The notes under the pieces were generated by a model. It was not told the DNA's origin and searched no databases. It worked only from the letters and a program-made list of their open reading frames with translations. A DNA stretch of 64,000 bases from Hoeflea sp. (GTDB lineage: Bacteria; Pseudomonadota; Alphaproteobacteria; Rhizobiales; Rhizobiaceae), in contig NZ_NVXQ01000027.1 in NCBI RefSeq assembly GCF_002733955.1, positions 26,736 to 90,735 of the forward strand. The letters run 5' to 3'. The first letter of the stretch is position 1, and each line of letters starts with the position of its first letter. Both the position numbers and the translations under genes were made by a program. Shown here piece by piece: positions 50,842 through 59,094 of the stretch.

Positions 50842-51531
50842 ATGGTAGTTATCCTCGCCCTGATGGGCGCCACCCTCGCCGTGCTGATCTACAATCATGA
50901 GACCGGGCTGAGTTTCGGCATTCCCAATGCGGACCTTGCCAGCCTTGTCTATCTCGGACTGATTGGGGCGGTTGTCGGCGCCGCCGTGGTCGGCGGGCAT
51001 CGCAATATCGGCGAAATGATCCGCAATCTGCTGATCTGGGTGGTGTTGATCCTCGGCCTTGCCACCGGCTGGCTTTACCAGGACCAGGCCCGGGACATGG
51101 TTTTGCGCGTGGCCGGCGGTCTGGCGCCCGGCAAGCCGGTCACGGTATCGGATGCAAATGGTCAGGCTGTGCTGATCCGCAAATCATTGAACGGTCACTT
51201 TGAAGCGGCCGGCGATGTCAACGGCGAGCCGGTGAGCTTCCTCATCGACACCGGTGCAACCTCGATCGCGCTGTCACATGCCGATGCCTTGCGCGTCGGA
51301 TTTTCGGAGGGTGACCTCAGCTACACGCTGATCATAAACACCGCCAACGGCAGAGCACGCGCAGCACCTGTCAGGCTCGACACGGTCACCATCGGCACAG
51401 TAGAGCGCCAGGGCTTGCGGGCCATGGTGGCAGAGCCGGGACAGCTGGAACAAAGCCTGCTCGGGATGAACTTCATCTCATCGCTGACAGCCTTTGAAAT
51501 GCGCCGGGACGAAGTCATCCTGCGCGACTGA
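50842..51531 (+). CDS. Membrane-anchored retropepsin-like aspartic protease (TIGR02281)
   Basis: A 229-residue protein with two or three N-terminal hydrophobic segments (ILALMGATLAVLIYN, DLASLVYLGLIGAVVGAAVV, LLIWVVLILGLATGW). A clan AA retropepsin-like domain follows, with the catalytic motif FLIDTGATSIALS and the end motif LLGMNFISSLTAFEM. One catalytic Asp is present, so it must act as a dimer. The domain probably faces the periplasm. Substrate unknown. Confidence 0.88.
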   Translation: MVVILALMGATLAVLIYNHETGLSFGIPNADLASLVYLGLIGAVVGAAVVGGHRNIGEMIRNLLIWVVLILGLATGWLYQDQARDMVLRVAGGLAPGKPVTVSDANGQAVLIRKSLNGHFEAAGDVNGEPVSFLIDTGATSIALSHADALRVGFSEGDLSYTLIINTANGRARAAPVRLDTVTIGTVERQGLRAMVAEPGQLEQSLLGMNFISSLTAFEMRRDEVILRD

Positions 51532-51716
51532 GGCGCCGCAACCAACTGCAGCGCCATGCGGACGCGACACCCCGCCAGTTCAGGCCGTACCGGGCACCGG
51601 GCGGAAAGCCTCAGGCAAGCGACTCGTGGCACAACGTGTCCGATTCCATCCTCGCGATGCGGATTGTCGTCAGTTTGTCGATTGCCTTGTTTGCTTTTCC
51701 GGTCACAGGTCGCGCC

Positions 51717-54023
51717 ATGATTTCAAGTTACCAATCCTATAATTTCTACACCAACGACATCAATCTGACGCTGAGCCGGAAGGCAGCCGACCCGGTAATC
51801 ACCAGGGAAGCGCAGTACTACCGCGACACGATCGGATCGATCAAAACGGTCGATGATTTTCTCGCCGATGACCGGGTCTACGCCTACGCAATGAAGGCCT
51901 ACGGGCTTGAGGACATGACCTACGCCAAGGCCTTCATTCGCAAGGTGCTTGAAAGCGACCTGACCGATACCAACAGTTTCGCAAACCTTCTCACCGACAG
52001 CAAATACAAGACCTTGGCCGCAGCCTATGACTTCGGCAACACGGTCACATCCGAAATCATCCAGACCACAAGCCAGATCGACGCCCTGATCGGCACCTAT
52101 GAGCAGTCCATTCAGAACAATGATGACCTGCTGCGCGAGGAAACCAACTACTTCAAGGCGGTGTCCCAGACCTTTACCAACGTCGACGACCTGCTGCAGA
52201 ACACCCGCGCCCGCGACTACGTCTTTTCCACCTTCGGCATCGATCCCAAGACCTATGACTACGAAACCCTCAGAGGCGTGCTCACCAGCGACATTGCCGA
52301 TGCGAACAGCTACGTAAACTCAGTCATTGCGCCCAAGGTCAATGACTGGCTGGTTCTGGTTGACGACCTCAACACGCAGTTGACCGATCCGCTGAAGACA
52401 CCGGCGCAGAAAGAGAAGATCAACTACCTGATCACCCAGTACACCAAGGCCATCGACAAGGCCGACATGTATTACAACATGGCCGCCTCCTTCAATTTCA
52501 GCGCCGATGGCAGCCTGGATACGGGCGTGGCCCCGATGACAGAAGCCCAGCTCAAAATGGTCACGGAGAGCTACGTGCTGTCGCAGCCAAGGCTGACCTC
52601 CACCGGCGCACTGCTCAACAAGCAGTATTACGAGGAAACCATTCCCACCATCACGACGCTTGAGGAGCTTCTCAACAATTCCCGTCTCAGCGTGATGATG
52701 CTGACGGCCTATGACATCCCACTGACCACCAGCCGCGCCGACGTCGAATGGGCTTTGCAGCAGGACACATCTGATCCCGACGGCGAAATCTACACCAAGA
52801 GCGAGGGAATGATCGCCTTGGCCAAGGCCTTCAATTTTGAAGCCGATGGCTCGATCACGCCCGGCATGGACATCCAGGACGCAGACCAACTCTACACGAC
52901 GACATCCAACTACATCGGCAAATACAACGACGCCGATGAAGAGGCCGATGCCGCGGCCATCGCCAAGTACAAGCTCTACATCGGCCTGACCAGCAACCTC
53001 GACGACTTCCTGTCTGCCGAGCCTGCGGCGATCACCATCCGTGAATTCGCCCTCAAGGCGTTCAACATTTCCCCCGATGAAGTCTCCACCTACAAGCTGA
53101 AACAGGTCTTCACAAGCGATCCCTATGATCCCAACAGCTACGTCAACAGCATGAAGGATGACCGCTTCGTGCAGCTGGCAAAGGCCTTCAACTTTGCCCC
53201 TGACGGCAGCATCGGCTCGCCACGCTATGCCCAGTCCGAAAATGAGATCACCCGGATTACCAAGGCCTATTACACCGCCGTGACCAGGCTTGATGACAGC
53301 GAATCCTCAAAGGCCGCGACGGAAAAGGAAGCCTCCTATTATCGGACCAGGCTGCAGACGCTGGAGACCGTGGACGAGCTTCTGGCCGACACGCGGCTAC
53401 GCAACGTGCTGCTGGTTGCCGAAGGTCTCAGACCGGTTGACGTGAGCACAGAGATGCTCCGGGCAGTTCTCACGTCTGACCTCGATGATCCGAACAGCTT
53501 TGCCAATCAGCAGACCGATATCGGCTTCCAGAAGATTGCCGGATCCTTCAACTTCGATGCCGAAGGCTACATCCGCACAGTGTCCGACCCTGGCGCACAG
53601 AATGAACGCGGCCTGGTGGAAACCCAGCGGCTCTATCTGACACAGGCAATCGAAGAAGAAGCCGGAGAGGAAAGCCTGGGCGCGCGTCTGGCTCTCTATT
53701 TCGAGCGCATGGCGCCTTCTCTGACCAGCAACTACGACATTCTGGCTGACGAAGCCCTGGCGCAGTTCGTCCGCACCACATTCTCGATTTCCGATGAGAC
53801 CGCGGGCAGTGACATCGACAAGCAGAAGGCCATGCTCGACCGGTATCTTGACGTGGACGATCTGCTCGATCCGGAAAAGGTCGACACTCTGGTCCGACGG
53901 TTCCTCGCGCTTTATGACATCGACAATGGTGCCCAGGACCCGATATTGTCTGTTCTCAACGGCAATTCGTCGATCAATTTCGAAACCGTGGCAACACTGG
54001 CTCAGCTGCGCTCCAGCTTGTAA
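51717..54023 (+). CDS. Large protein with about six tandem DUF1217 modules
   Basis: A 768-residue protein made of repeated DUF1217 units of roughly 100-130 residues. Each carries a helical DDLL or DEFLAD-type start, a LKAFNI or YALKAYGLE middle, a DPNSYVN or DTNSFAN motif and a LAKAFNF-DGSI end. DUF1217 proteins are often encoded in rhizobial flagellar loci, but no flagellar gene is near. The ATG at 51717 matches family starts (MISSYQSYNFYTNDINLTL). An ATG at 51657 would add a signal-like MRIVVSLSIALFAFPVTGRA segment and cannot be ruled out. Function unknown. Confidence 0.8.
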   Translation: MISSYQSYNFYTNDINLTLSRKAADPVITREAQYYRDTIGSIKTVDDFLADDRVYAYAMKAYGLEDMTYAKAFIRKVLESDLTDTNSFANLLTDSKYKTLAAAYDFGNTVTSEIIQTTSQIDALIGTYEQSIQNNDDLLREETNYFKAVSQTFTNVDDLLQNTRARDYVFSTFGIDPKTYDYETLRGVLTSDIADANSYVNSVIAPKVNDWLVLVDDLNTQLTDPLKTPAQKEKINYLITQYTKAIDKADMYYNMAASFNFSADGSLDTGVAPMTEAQLKMVTESYVLSQPRLTSTGALLNKQYYEETIPTITTLEELLNNSRLSVMMLTAYDIPLTTSRADVEWALQQDTSDPDGEIYTKSEGMIALAKAFNFEADGSITPGMDIQDADQLYTTTSNYIGKYNDADEEADAAAIAKYKLYIGLTSNLDDFLSAEPAAITIREFALKAFNISPDEVSTYKLKQVFTSDPYDPNSYVNSMKDDRFVQLAKAFNFAPDGSIGSPRYAQSENEITRITKAYYTAVTRLDDSESSKAATEKEASYYRTRLQTLETVDELLADTRLRNVLLVAEGLRPVDVSTEMLRAVLTSDLDDPNSFANQQTDIGFQKIAGSFNFDAEGYIRTVSDPGAQNERGLVETQRLYLTQAIEEEAGEESLGARLALYFERMAPSLTSNYDILADEALAQFVRTTFSISDETAGSDIDKQKAMLDRYLDVDDLLDPEKVDTLVRRFLALYDIDNGAQDPILSVLNGNSSINFETVATLAQLRSSL

Positions 54024-54148: not shown

Positions 54149-54967
54149 TCAGACCAGGCTGTAGAGAAACCGGGCCGCCACGGACAGTATGAACACGCCA
54201 AAGCCGATCTCGAGCTGGCGCTTGTTGAGCGCATGCGCCAGCCGGACACCCAACGGCGCCACCAGCAGCGTGATCGGGATGATCAGCCCCACCACCACCC
54301 AGTTTATGTAGCCTGTCGAAAATGGCGGCAGGCCAGCCGATCCCCACCCTGCCCAGATATAGCCGAACAGGCCGGGCACCGCGATCAGCACACCGACCCC
54401 GGCAGAGGTTGCCACGGCCTGGTGCACGGGACGGCCATATAGCGTCATGAAGGTGTTGTTGAGAACGCCGCCGCCAATGCCCATGAGACCGGACAAAAGC
54501 CCGATAACCCACCCGACGAGAGCTCTGACGGGATTTTCCGGCAATTGCCCGCCAAGCCGCCAGTGCTCTTTGTTGAGCAGCATTCGCAACCCGACCAGAA
54601 TGGCAATCAGCGCAAAGATTGCCCGCAGTCCGGCACTTGAAACCGAAGCCGCGATGAAGGCCGCCGAAAACACGCCAAGCGGCACCGCCAGGATCCAGTT
54701 GCGCAACAGGTCCTGATCCACCGCGCCGCGCTTTCGGTGTGACAGGAACGATCGGATCGACGTCGGAACGATGATCGCCAGCGAGGTGCCGACGGAGAGA
54801 TGCATGCGCACCGCGTCATCCACCTGCAGCATGCCGAAAAGCTGGTAGAACACCGGCACGAGGATAGCCCCGCCGCCAATGCCGAACAGGCCCGCGAGCA
54901 CACCGGCAACGCCTCCGGCTGCAGCAAGAGCCACCGCAAACCAGATCAGATCTTCTGGAGCTGGCAT
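54149..54967 (-). CDS. Sulfite/organosulfonate exporter TauE/SafE family protein
   Basis: A 272-residue inner-membrane protein with about eight membrane segments of the TauE/SafE family. Repeated small-residue segments VLAGLFGIGGGAILVPVF and LSGLMGIGGGVLNN are the family signatures in the two halves. Members move sulfite, sulfoacetate or related anions across the membrane. No sulfonate catabolic gene is adjacent. The ATG at 54967 is taken from the ORF track. Confidence 0.88.
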   Translation of the reverse strand: MPAPEDLIWFAVALAAAGGVAGVLAGLFGIGGGAILVPVFYQLFGMLQVDDAVRMHLSVGTSLAIIVPTSIRSFLSHRKRGAVDQDLLRNWILAVPLGVFSAAFIAASVSSAGLRAIFALIAILVGLRMLLNKEHWRLGGQLPENPVRALVGWVIGLLSGLMGIGGGVLNNTFMTLYGRPVHQAVATSAGVGVLIAVPGLFGYIWAGWGSAGLPPFSTGYINWVVVGLIIPITLLVAPLGVRLAHALNKRQLEIGFGVFILSVAARFLYSLV

Positions 54968-56331: not shown

Positions 56332-56574
56332 GGATTGCTCCGATACAACGCAAAACTTTAATTCAAACTCCCACACAACAGTAAAGGAAGGCTGATCTTT
56401 GCCGTTAACCTCTGGGGCAATATTGCGGCAGCCCCGGAGATCACCGACCTGACCGCAGAGGACCACAGACCAGATGATGAATGCGGTTTGCAGTCATCCC
56501 CACAATCTCGCCCGCGCTCCCTTCAAAACCATCCGGCTGCAGGGTAAACCTGAAGCGGCAACAAGGAGAAGAGC

Positions 56575-56952
56575 ATGAGCACGCCGACGGGTGAACTGAC
56601 TTTGCGGACACTGGCCATGCCGGCTGATGCCAACGCCGCCGGCGATATTTTCGGTGGATGGGTGATGGCCCAGATGGACCTGGCCTGCGGTATCCGTGCC
56701 GCCGAGCGCGCAAGGGGACGCGTGGTCACCGCAGCGGTCAATGAAATGTCCTTCGCCATGCCGGTCAAGATCGGCGACACACTGTGCATCTATACCGATA
56801 TCGTCAAGGTCGGGCGCACCTCGATGACGCTGCTGGTCGAAGCATGGGCCCAGCGCTATCTGTCTCCGCAAATGGACAAGGTCACCAACGCCCTGTTTGT
56901 CATGGTGGCGCTGGATGTGAACAACAAACCGACCCCACTGCCCGCAGAGTAA
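56575..56952 (+). CDS. yciA: Acyl-CoA thioesterase, YciA type
   Basis: A 125-residue hotdog-fold acyl-CoA thioesterase of the YciA family. The key run is PADANAAGDIFGGWVMAQMDLACGIRA, which holds the catalytic Asp, followed by VTAAVNEMSFAMPVKIGDTL. A good AAGGAGAAGAG site precedes the ATG. It hydrolyses short to medium acyl-CoA and acts as a hexamer in the family. It is divergent from the extensin-like gene. Confidence 0.92.
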   Translation: MSTPTGELTLRTLAMPADANAAGDIFGGWVMAQMDLACGIRAAERARGRVVTAAVNEMSFAMPVKIGDTLCIYTDIVKVGRTSMTLLVEAWAQRYLSPQMDKVTNALFVMVALDVNNKPTPLPAE

Positions 56953-57075
56953 GACGCCAGGGCAGCCGCACCGCAGATTGAATCGACACCGCAAGCGCCG
57001 GATTCAATCTGGCAACACCGTCACCTATGCCGTTGATACGAAACAACTTTTAAGAACCAGGACGAACAGCCGCCA

Positions 57076-57885
57076 CTATTGACCGACAGCCGCCTTGGCA
57101 CCATCGGTCGAAACAGACGGCCGCTCACTCATCTCGTAGAGATACAGCCGAGTCTTGCGCCGGTCGGGCAATTCCCAGGTCTCTGACGGCTCGACGCCCG
57201 GGACGGCAAAGCTGTTGGAGACCAGCAGGCTGCCCGGCTTCATCTCCCGAGCCGCCTTGTCATAAAGTGCGGGCATCGGCTCTGGCGAAAGGAAGGCATA
57301 GACGATGTCGTCGCCCGATATGTCCGCTGACCAGATATCCTGCCGCAGGATCCGGCCACGCCTGAAGATCTTTGACACCAGGACAGACAGCAACCAGACC
57401 ATCGGCGCGGTCTCCACACCCCTTGCCTGCCTGCCCTCGCCATCGAGCGCGCGGACGACGCCGCCAAGACCCGACCCGAGATCGACGAAACGGCTCGCCC
57501 CGCGTTGCTGCATCAGTGACGCCAGCGCCTCGGTCGTCGCCCTGTTGGTGAGATAGAGCGGCACCCGCTCGCGCGCCGTGTTGGAAAAGAAAAGATACAG
57601 GACCACGAAACCGACGCCGAACGGCCAGGCCGGCAGCTCTCCGGCATTCAGCGCCAGCACCATCGCCGCGGGGAAACAAAGCCCGATCCAGACCCACCAG
57701 ACTGGAAGACCGATGAGTCTGGTGATCAAAGCCGCCGCCAGGCTCTGCATCAGAAGCGCCATCCAGAACAAGCCGCGCGCATCTAGTGTTCCGGCAAGGC
57801 CCATGAGCAGCAGCCACACGAGCGCACCGGCAACGACCTGGGCGGCGATGGCGCCGATGATCGGGTAGGAGCGGAGAAGCTTCAT
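57076..57885 (-). CDS. Membrane-bound class I SAM-dependent methyltransferase
   Basis: A 269-residue protein with about four membrane segments in the first 105 residues (VAGALVWLLLMGLAG, LFWMALLMQSLAAALITRL, WWVWIGLCFPAAMVLAL, FGVGFVVLYLFF) and a methyltransferase-like domain after residue 120. The SAM-binding motif reads FVDLGSGLGGVVRAL, and a DDIVYAFLSPEPMPALYDKAAREM segment follows. The helices and domain are a combination I do not recall with a known function. It lies between the thioesterase and dusA genes; substrate unknown. Confidence 0.75.
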   Translation of the reverse strand: MKLLRSYPIIGAIAAQVVAGALVWLLLMGLAGTLDARGLFWMALLMQSLAAALITRLIGLPVWWVWIGLCFPAAMVLALNAGELPAWPFGVGFVVLYLFFSNTARERVPLYLTNRATTEALASLMQQRGASRFVDLGSGLGGVVRALDGEGRQARGVETAPMVWLLSVLVSKIFRRGRILRQDIWSADISGDDIVYAFLSPEPMPALYDKAAREMKPGSLLVSNSFAVPGVEPSETWELPDRRKTRLYLYEMSERPSVSTDGAKAAVGQ

Positions 57886-57925
57886 GTCATGTCCCGTCGA
57901 TTGGCGACATTGCTGGGGTGAGCGA

Positions 57926-58921
57926 TCAGGCGGCTTCTGTCAGATCTGCGAAGTTGATGGCCTCGAAAGCGGCGGCGATCACCTCCGGCCCCGCTCCCGG
58001 ACGCACAGCGTCAGTCGACAGGATTTGCCGGAAACGGCGCGCGCCGCGTACGCCCTGAAACAGGCCGATCATGTGCCGGGTGACATGAATGAGCCGGCCA
58101 CCCGCGGCCAGATGCGCCTCCGCATGGGCCATCATCGACGCGCAGACAGCGCCCCAATCGGTCTCTGCCACGTCGTCACCATAGACCTGGCGGTCCACCT
58201 CTGCGAGCAGCGACGTGTTGTGATAGGCAGCCCGCCCGAGCATCACGCCATCAACATGATTCAGATGCTCATCAGCCTGATTCAGCGTGGCAACACCGCC
58301 ATTTATGCCGATGAAAAGATTCGGGTAATCTCGTTTGAGACGATAGACGATGCCGTAATCGAGCGGCGGAATATCCCGGTTCTCCTTGGGCGAAAGCCCT
58401 TCGAGCCAGGCCTTGCGCGCGTGCACCCAGAGCGCATCCACACCGGCGTCGACGACGGTCCTGACAAAGTCCGGCAAAACGATTTCGGGATCCTGTTCGT
58501 CCACCCCGATCCGGCACTTCACCGTCACCGGCACATCCGCGACGGTTTTCATCGTCGTAACGCAGCGCGCCACCAGCTCCGCCTCGCGCATCAGGCAGGC
58601 GCCGAAGGCACCCGATTGCACCCGGTCGGACGGGCAGCCGACATTGAGATTGATTTCGTCATAGCCAAAGTCTGTCGCAATTCGCACGGCCTCGACCAGC
58701 TTGTCGGGTTCCGATCCGCCCAGCTGCAAGGCCACAGGATGCTCCACCTGATCAAAGCCAAGCAGCCGGTCACGGTCACCATGGATGATGCCGTCAGCCA
58801 CCACCATCTCGGTGTAAAGCAGCGCCTGGCGCGACAGTTGACGGTGCAGGAACCGGCAGTGCCGGTCAGTCCAGTCCATCATCGGTGCGACGGCAAATCG
58901 GTGTTGAGGGTATCTACTCAT
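57926..58921 (-). CDS. dusA: tRNA-dihydrouridine synthase A
   Basis: A 331-residue FMN enzyme reducing U20 of tRNA to dihydrouridine. The flavin-barrel motifs RFAVAPMMDWTDRHCRF, VALQLGGSEPDKLVEA, EINLNVGCPSDRVQSGAFGACLM (split) with the catalytic Cys, and GINGGVATL are all present, in the DusA order. The ATG at 58921 starts at MSRYPQHRF; the track extension of 23 residues is rejected. Confidence 0.95.
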   Translation of the reverse strand: MSRYPQHRFAVAPMMDWTDRHCRFLHRQLSRQALLYTEMVVADGIIHGDRDRLLGFDQVEHPVALQLGGSEPDKLVEAVRIATDFGYDEINLNVGCPSDRVQSGAFGACLMREAELVARCVTTMKTVADVPVTVKCRIGVDEQDPEIVLPDFVRTVVDAGVDALWVHARKAWLEGLSPKENRDIPPLDYGIVYRLKRDYPNLFIGINGGVATLNQADEHLNHVDGVMLGRAAYHNTSLLAEVDRQVYGDDVAETDWGAVCASMMAHAEAHLAAGGRLIHVTRHMIGLFQGVRGARRFRQILSTDAVRPGAGPEVIAAAFEAINFADLTEAA

Positions 58922-59094
58922 CTCGCCTGTTTCATAAACTGTGCAGGCCCGGTCTCCAGGCCCGAATTCATTCGCCTGCCTATAGCGCAAATCCCATCCG
59001 CGCGAAACCGTGCCATCTGAGTGCCGAGATCAAGGGATCAGTGGAACCAGTTGACCTTTGTGGCGTTGAAGCAGCAGCATCAACGGAGACTACA

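Follow-up and report, generated by a model that had tools for sequence, protein, structure and literature searches.

The gene at 51,717–54,023 on the forward strand of the Hoeflea window, by which we mean the whole 64,000-nucleotide stretch that was analysed, encodes a 768-residue protein of six DUF1217 units that is probably a flagellar-assembly protein, expanded and relocated, whose most likely point of action comes once flagellin has been exported. That this long form of DUF1217 serves the flagellum is well supported, and a role at the filament tip is only suggested. As read from the genomes, the family co-occurs with flagella almost perfectly, and the long form occupies the flagellar slot in some relatives and is the sole copy in many others where that slot is empty. 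DUF1217 is a known, functionally uncharacterised family; the six-unit relocated version is new.

A Pfam scan matched the protein to DUF1217 (PF06748) over five stretches (E=1.7e-89), with 298 bits against a curated cut-off of 22.9. When the protein was compared with itself, off-diagonal 30-residue windows scored up to 74, above the maxima of 30–46 obtained in 20 shuffles, and the comparison linked starts at residues ~30, 141, 301, 415, 537 and 657. This bears out the original prediction of about six modules, of which at least five are clear and a sixth diverged, and of more than two on self-alignment. An iterated unit HMM likewise gave six units, all on the forward strand: unit 1, the head (residues 30–108; 51,804–52,040; 106 bits); unit 2 (residues 141–211 and 248–267, separated by an insert of ~36 residues; 52,137–52,517); unit 3 (residues 301–381; 52,617–52,859); unit 4 (residues 415–499; 52,959–53,213); unit 5 (residues 537–619; 53,325–53,573); and unit 6, the tail, whose HMM match covers residues 657–702 with conservation continuing to ~740 (53,685–53,936). 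The five Pfam hits fall short of six because the tail unit is too diverged to give a sixth. Residues 741–768 (53,937–54,020) form a low-confidence C-terminus with a terminal helix (pLDDT below 50 for 740–768).

The start codon at 51,717 is supported because the Hoeflea orthologues share ATGAT at that position. Relative to the nearest species, Hoeflea halophila, dN/dS for the long-form gene was 0.064, indicating purifying selection, and values of 0.06–0.11 were found across its whole length, with all units kept in Hoeflea orthologues. NCBIfam held no family for the six-unit protein. The Pfam scan returned, beyond DUF1217, only a weak, sub-threshold match to DUF3209; this and an antibody-chain match were discarded as chance, and neither FliD_N nor FliD_C was present. 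No hydrophobic signal peptide was found at the N-terminus.

The ordinary DUF1217 protein has ~260 residues and two units, so the long form does carry more modules than is usual for the family, as had been predicted. Across proteins, unit 1 of the long form had a mean identity of 53% to the ordinary first unit, and unit 6 had 47% to the ordinary second unit. The inner units were ~32–35% identical among themselves and 27–31% identical to the ordinary first unit. Because the head and tail match the ordinary units and the inner units do not, we describe the long form as a head, four inner units and a tail. On sequence comparison, then, it has ends like those of the ordinary protein and four faster-evolving, helical inner units, the whole being under purifying selection.

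Consistent with this, Agrobacterium AGR_C_984p (PDB 2o8s), the one relative whose structure has been solved, aligns only with residues 2–128 and 640–748, the latter with 2o8s_A 180–289. AlphaFold models of both proteins were mostly confident (pLDDT 84.5 and 86.8) and almost all-helical, and the long form was modelled as a chain of helical units. Its sole significant structural match in the PDB was 2o8s (E=5.8e-8), which the model of the ordinary copy matched at E=9e-18 and a TM of 0.80. Neither model retrieved FliD or a flagellin, hook, rod or other axial-protein fold from the PDB.

The genome is that of a Hoeflea, its protein being 92% identical to that of H. halophila. In that species, as in the further Hoeflea loci that were examined, the six-unit gene is surrounded by genes for a histidine kinase, CobT, CobS, an aspartyl protease and TauE, so that the site is conserved and non-flagellar in all of them. 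In the window, the gene lies between the retroviral-type aspartyl protease gene (50,842–51,531, forward strand) and the TauE/SafE transporter gene (54,149–54,967, reverse strand), outside the motA/flgF-fliI position. Flagellar queries against the window matched the six-unit gene alone, in agreement with the earlier statement that no flagellar gene is found here. Three adjacent ORFs at 56,494–59,020, without any Pfam family, are kept in most Hoeflea loci examined. Upstream of the gene, the block AGNNTCRGRCAAG (51,607–51,619, forward strand) lies 97 bp before the start codon and was found 84–97 bp upstream in 9 of 9 Hoeflea orthologues; it resembles a promoter or operator element. The idea that this block ties the gene to the regulation of flagellar genes was rejected, as seven genome hits against six for the reversed control gave no enrichment.

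Across 249 genomes of the family, with counts compiled by hand from listings, DUF1217 and flagellar MotA agreed in 246 (201 with both, 45 with neither). The three discordant genomes comprised two with DUF1217 only, both incomplete drafts, and one, G278, with flagellar MotA and no DUF1217 match. Of the 202 MotA-positive genomes, 43 carried both a slot copy and an orphan long form, 42 an orphan only, 116 a slot copy only, and one neither. Loss of the slot copy was thus seen in 42 of 85 genomes with a long form versus 1 of 117 without (naive Fisher p=2e-18, uncorrected for shared ancestry), and the orphan-only genomes span ~20 genera. When 20 motA-flgF slots were read, 17 were empty (gaps of 61–319 bp between matches), two held an ordinary copy, and one, in G201, held a 171-codon DUF1217 remnant (L058, 5119–5619). 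In 24 of the 42 genomes with an orphan only, the slot is taken to be empty from the lack of a second DUF1217 match. G201 also carries an orphan long form, and its remnant is an intermediate of slot loss. The presence of the orphan as the sole DUF1217 copy in dozens of relatives suggests that the long form does the flagellar job itself, and the 42 flagellated genomes of this kind run counter to the original reading of distance from flagellar genes as the sign of a non-flagellar gene.

The same Hoeflea genome carries, on C5, a 260-residue ordinary copy between motA-fliM-fliN-fliG-flhB and flgF-fliI; the Brucella gene lies at the equivalent position (PMC7410920). Slot proteins were found with two units, three (G069, G136, G180), five (G105) or six (G090, G124), the last being full-length relatives of the window protein. 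Orphan long forms mostly have six units, with eight in G187 and ten in G023. Counting modules in relatives, as had been proposed, therefore gave a series of 2, 3, 5, 6, 8 and 10. A midpoint-rooted tree built from head and tail only contained a group, with a modest support of 73, that took in every orphan together with the six-unit proteins of the slot and a single three-unit slot protein; the slot proteins of G069, G136 and G105, with three or five units, grouped elsewhere.

Several plasmid-borne long forms lie beside hook or filament genes: next to flgL-flgK-flgE on R. johnstonii pRL12, next to flgE and a hook-associated (FlgL-type) gene on R. etli p42f, and, as a 768-residue six-unit protein, next to flgE and two flagellin genes on a Pseudorhizobium flavum plasmid. 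Small hook/filament sets, made up of flgE with flgK/flgL or flagellins, accompany the six-unit gene at three Rhizobium/Pseudorhizobium plasmid loci (L099, L102, L103), and in L099 and L102 a gene for an EF-hand protein stands between the two. No flgE, flgK, flgL or flagellin gene was found near the chromosomal orphans in loci covering ~5–7 kb on each side, and the plasmid linkage is therefore not general. A position of the gene in a flagellar cluster in relatives was to count against the original reading, and this applies in part: the six-unit proteins of G090 and G124 are in the flagellar slot, plasmid long forms have hook and flagellin neighbours, and the ordinary copy of the Hoeflea genome is in its flagellar cluster.

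Outside Rhizobiales, the gene order fliC-flaF-flbT-(flaG)-DUF1217 was found in Cereibacter, Paracoccus, Salipiger, Loktanella and Azospirillum, the last having flaG between flbT and DUF1217; Pseudoroseomonas has a similar order, with a hypothetical gene preceding DUF1217. Previous work placed fliC-flaF-flbT-CP1 together on the C. sphaeroides plasmid of 124 kb (PMC12363192), and we found the DUF1217 gene directly after flbT on the 124,316-bp plasmid of that species. By position, rather than by the Phaeobacter sequence, the DUF1217 protein of Rhodobacterales is thus CP1. The CP1 mutant of Phaeobacter inhibens is immotile and lacks flagella, with FliC in the medium, and still secretes most flagellar proteins, flagellin included (PMC12363192). 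Export of flagellin without a filament points to filament assembly after export, and we propose this step for DUF1217 because the equivalence with CP1 by gene order joins the two observations.

S. meliloti SMc03023, the DUF1217 locus by gene order, goes up with the flagellar regulon on surfaces. A near-saturating screen for non-motile mutants of Agrobacterium fabrum named four genes of unknown function, none of them the DUF1217 gene. The closest sampled genome (G383, 92% identity to AGR_C_984p) has three DUF1217 genes (C1:1062711, C1:1164108 and C12:44492), namely a slot copy and a pair of long forms, and redundancy from the two extra copies is a plausible explanation of the screen result. The examined passages of the R. 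etli exoproteome paper make no mention of the DUF1217 protein.

Taken together, we favour a model in which the long form would act in trans on the flagellum, with ends that make contacts equal to those of the ordinary protein and inner units that serve as a spacer of variable length. Less firmly, the step served could be filament assembly after flagellin export, with the protein perhaps exported to act at the tip or at a junction, or else escorting flagellin. In Hoeflea, where the ordinary copy is also present, the long form may be specialised. More tentatively, DUF1217 might be an unrecognised filament-assembly factor of alphaproteobacterial flagella without FliD, made in lengths of 2 to 10 whole helical units between fixed ends, whose long form left the cluster and replaced the original gene across ~20 genera.

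The closest competitor, which we regard as possible though doubtful, is that DUF1217 never leaves the cell and is a cytoplasmic escort or assembly checkpoint for flagellar export substrates. The Phaeobacter exoproteome contained no CP protein, the authors of that study propose chaperone roles for CP proteins (PMC12363192), and the ordinary gene lies directly against flgF. However, a role in export is not required by the data, given what the CP1 mutant still secretes, and inner units whose number varies freely would be unusual for a chaperone. Rather less likely is that DUF1217 takes over the function of FliD as the missing filament cap. The CP1 phenotype is what one would expect of a cap mutant, DUF1217 follows flaG in Azospirillum, and FliD has been reported absent from Rhizobiaceae (PMC6913195) and P. 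inhibens (PMC12363192). Among DUF1217 genomes, those lacking another, strongly scoring FliM type had FliD in 0 of 33 cases, and those carrying that type in 6 of 10. Yet FliD was detectable in only 9 of ~105 flagellated relatives without DUF1217, so one does not simply replace the other and strict complementarity was not found; it is for this reason that the cap role, which the missing FliD invites, is held to be unlikely. Neither FliD nor any axial protein resembles DUF1217 in structure, and this, like the exoproteome result, also weighs against a cap.

The remaining two alternatives concern the long form itself. That it left the flagellum and became a separate structural protein of the surface or envelope, in line with the rod or surface structure first suggested by the regular repeat, seems improbable to us, even though its neighbourhood is stable and non-flagellar in all Hoeflea loci examined and 43 genomes keep an ordinary flagellar copy as well. 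In one genome with a long form, G112 (L047), the only FliM is of the other, strongly scoring type and the Rhizobiaceae type is missing, which also suits a surface protein; this long form was possibly acquired. Such a protein would leave unexplained both the loss of the slot copy in 42 of 85 versus 1 of 117 genomes and the near-absence of long forms without this kind of flagellum, and without a signal peptide its ordinary export would be unexplained as well. That the long form is a redundant duplicate drifting towards loss has very little left in its favour: the Hoeflea genome does hold an intact ordinary copy, but the dN/dS values and the retention of every unit in the orthologues largely refute drift.

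If the long form is indeed an expanded flagellar-assembly protein, it offers a route to a filament-building factor in bacteria without the usual tip protein. No filament cap is recognised in the swimming Rhizobiaceae and Rhodobacterales, and DUF1217 is a specific candidate in that it tracks Rhizobiaceae flagella almost one to one and matches the CP1 mutant by gene order; the survival of the long form as the sole copy in many genomes adds to its candidacy. The natural range of unit numbers provides a ready series for probing the effect of length. Furthermore, a redundant copy outside the cluster can escape screens for flagellar genes that look only within it.

Among known systems, FliD would share with DUF1217 the proposed step, filament growth after export, and is missing from the flagella of this family; the two have no sequence or fold similarity, and their distributions are not strictly complementary. 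Like the long form, the axial proteins flagellin, FlgK and FlgL combine conserved ends with a middle of variable length. However, there is no fold match, and the middle of the long form consists of copies of the end unit, whereas the axial middles are unrelated domains. CP1 of P. inhibens, the DUF1217 equivalent by gene order, is required for flagella; the Cereibacter protein at the CP1 position has 262 residues and one clear unit, against six in the window protein. The nearest known counterpart is the ordinary DUF1217 protein (PF06748), represented by AGR_C_984p/2o8s, Brucella BMEII1108 and, by gene order, S. meliloti SMc03023. The head and tail units, the Pfam family and the helical make-up are common to both, but the ordinary protein has two units and lies in the flagellar cluster, whereas the window protein has six and lies outside it.
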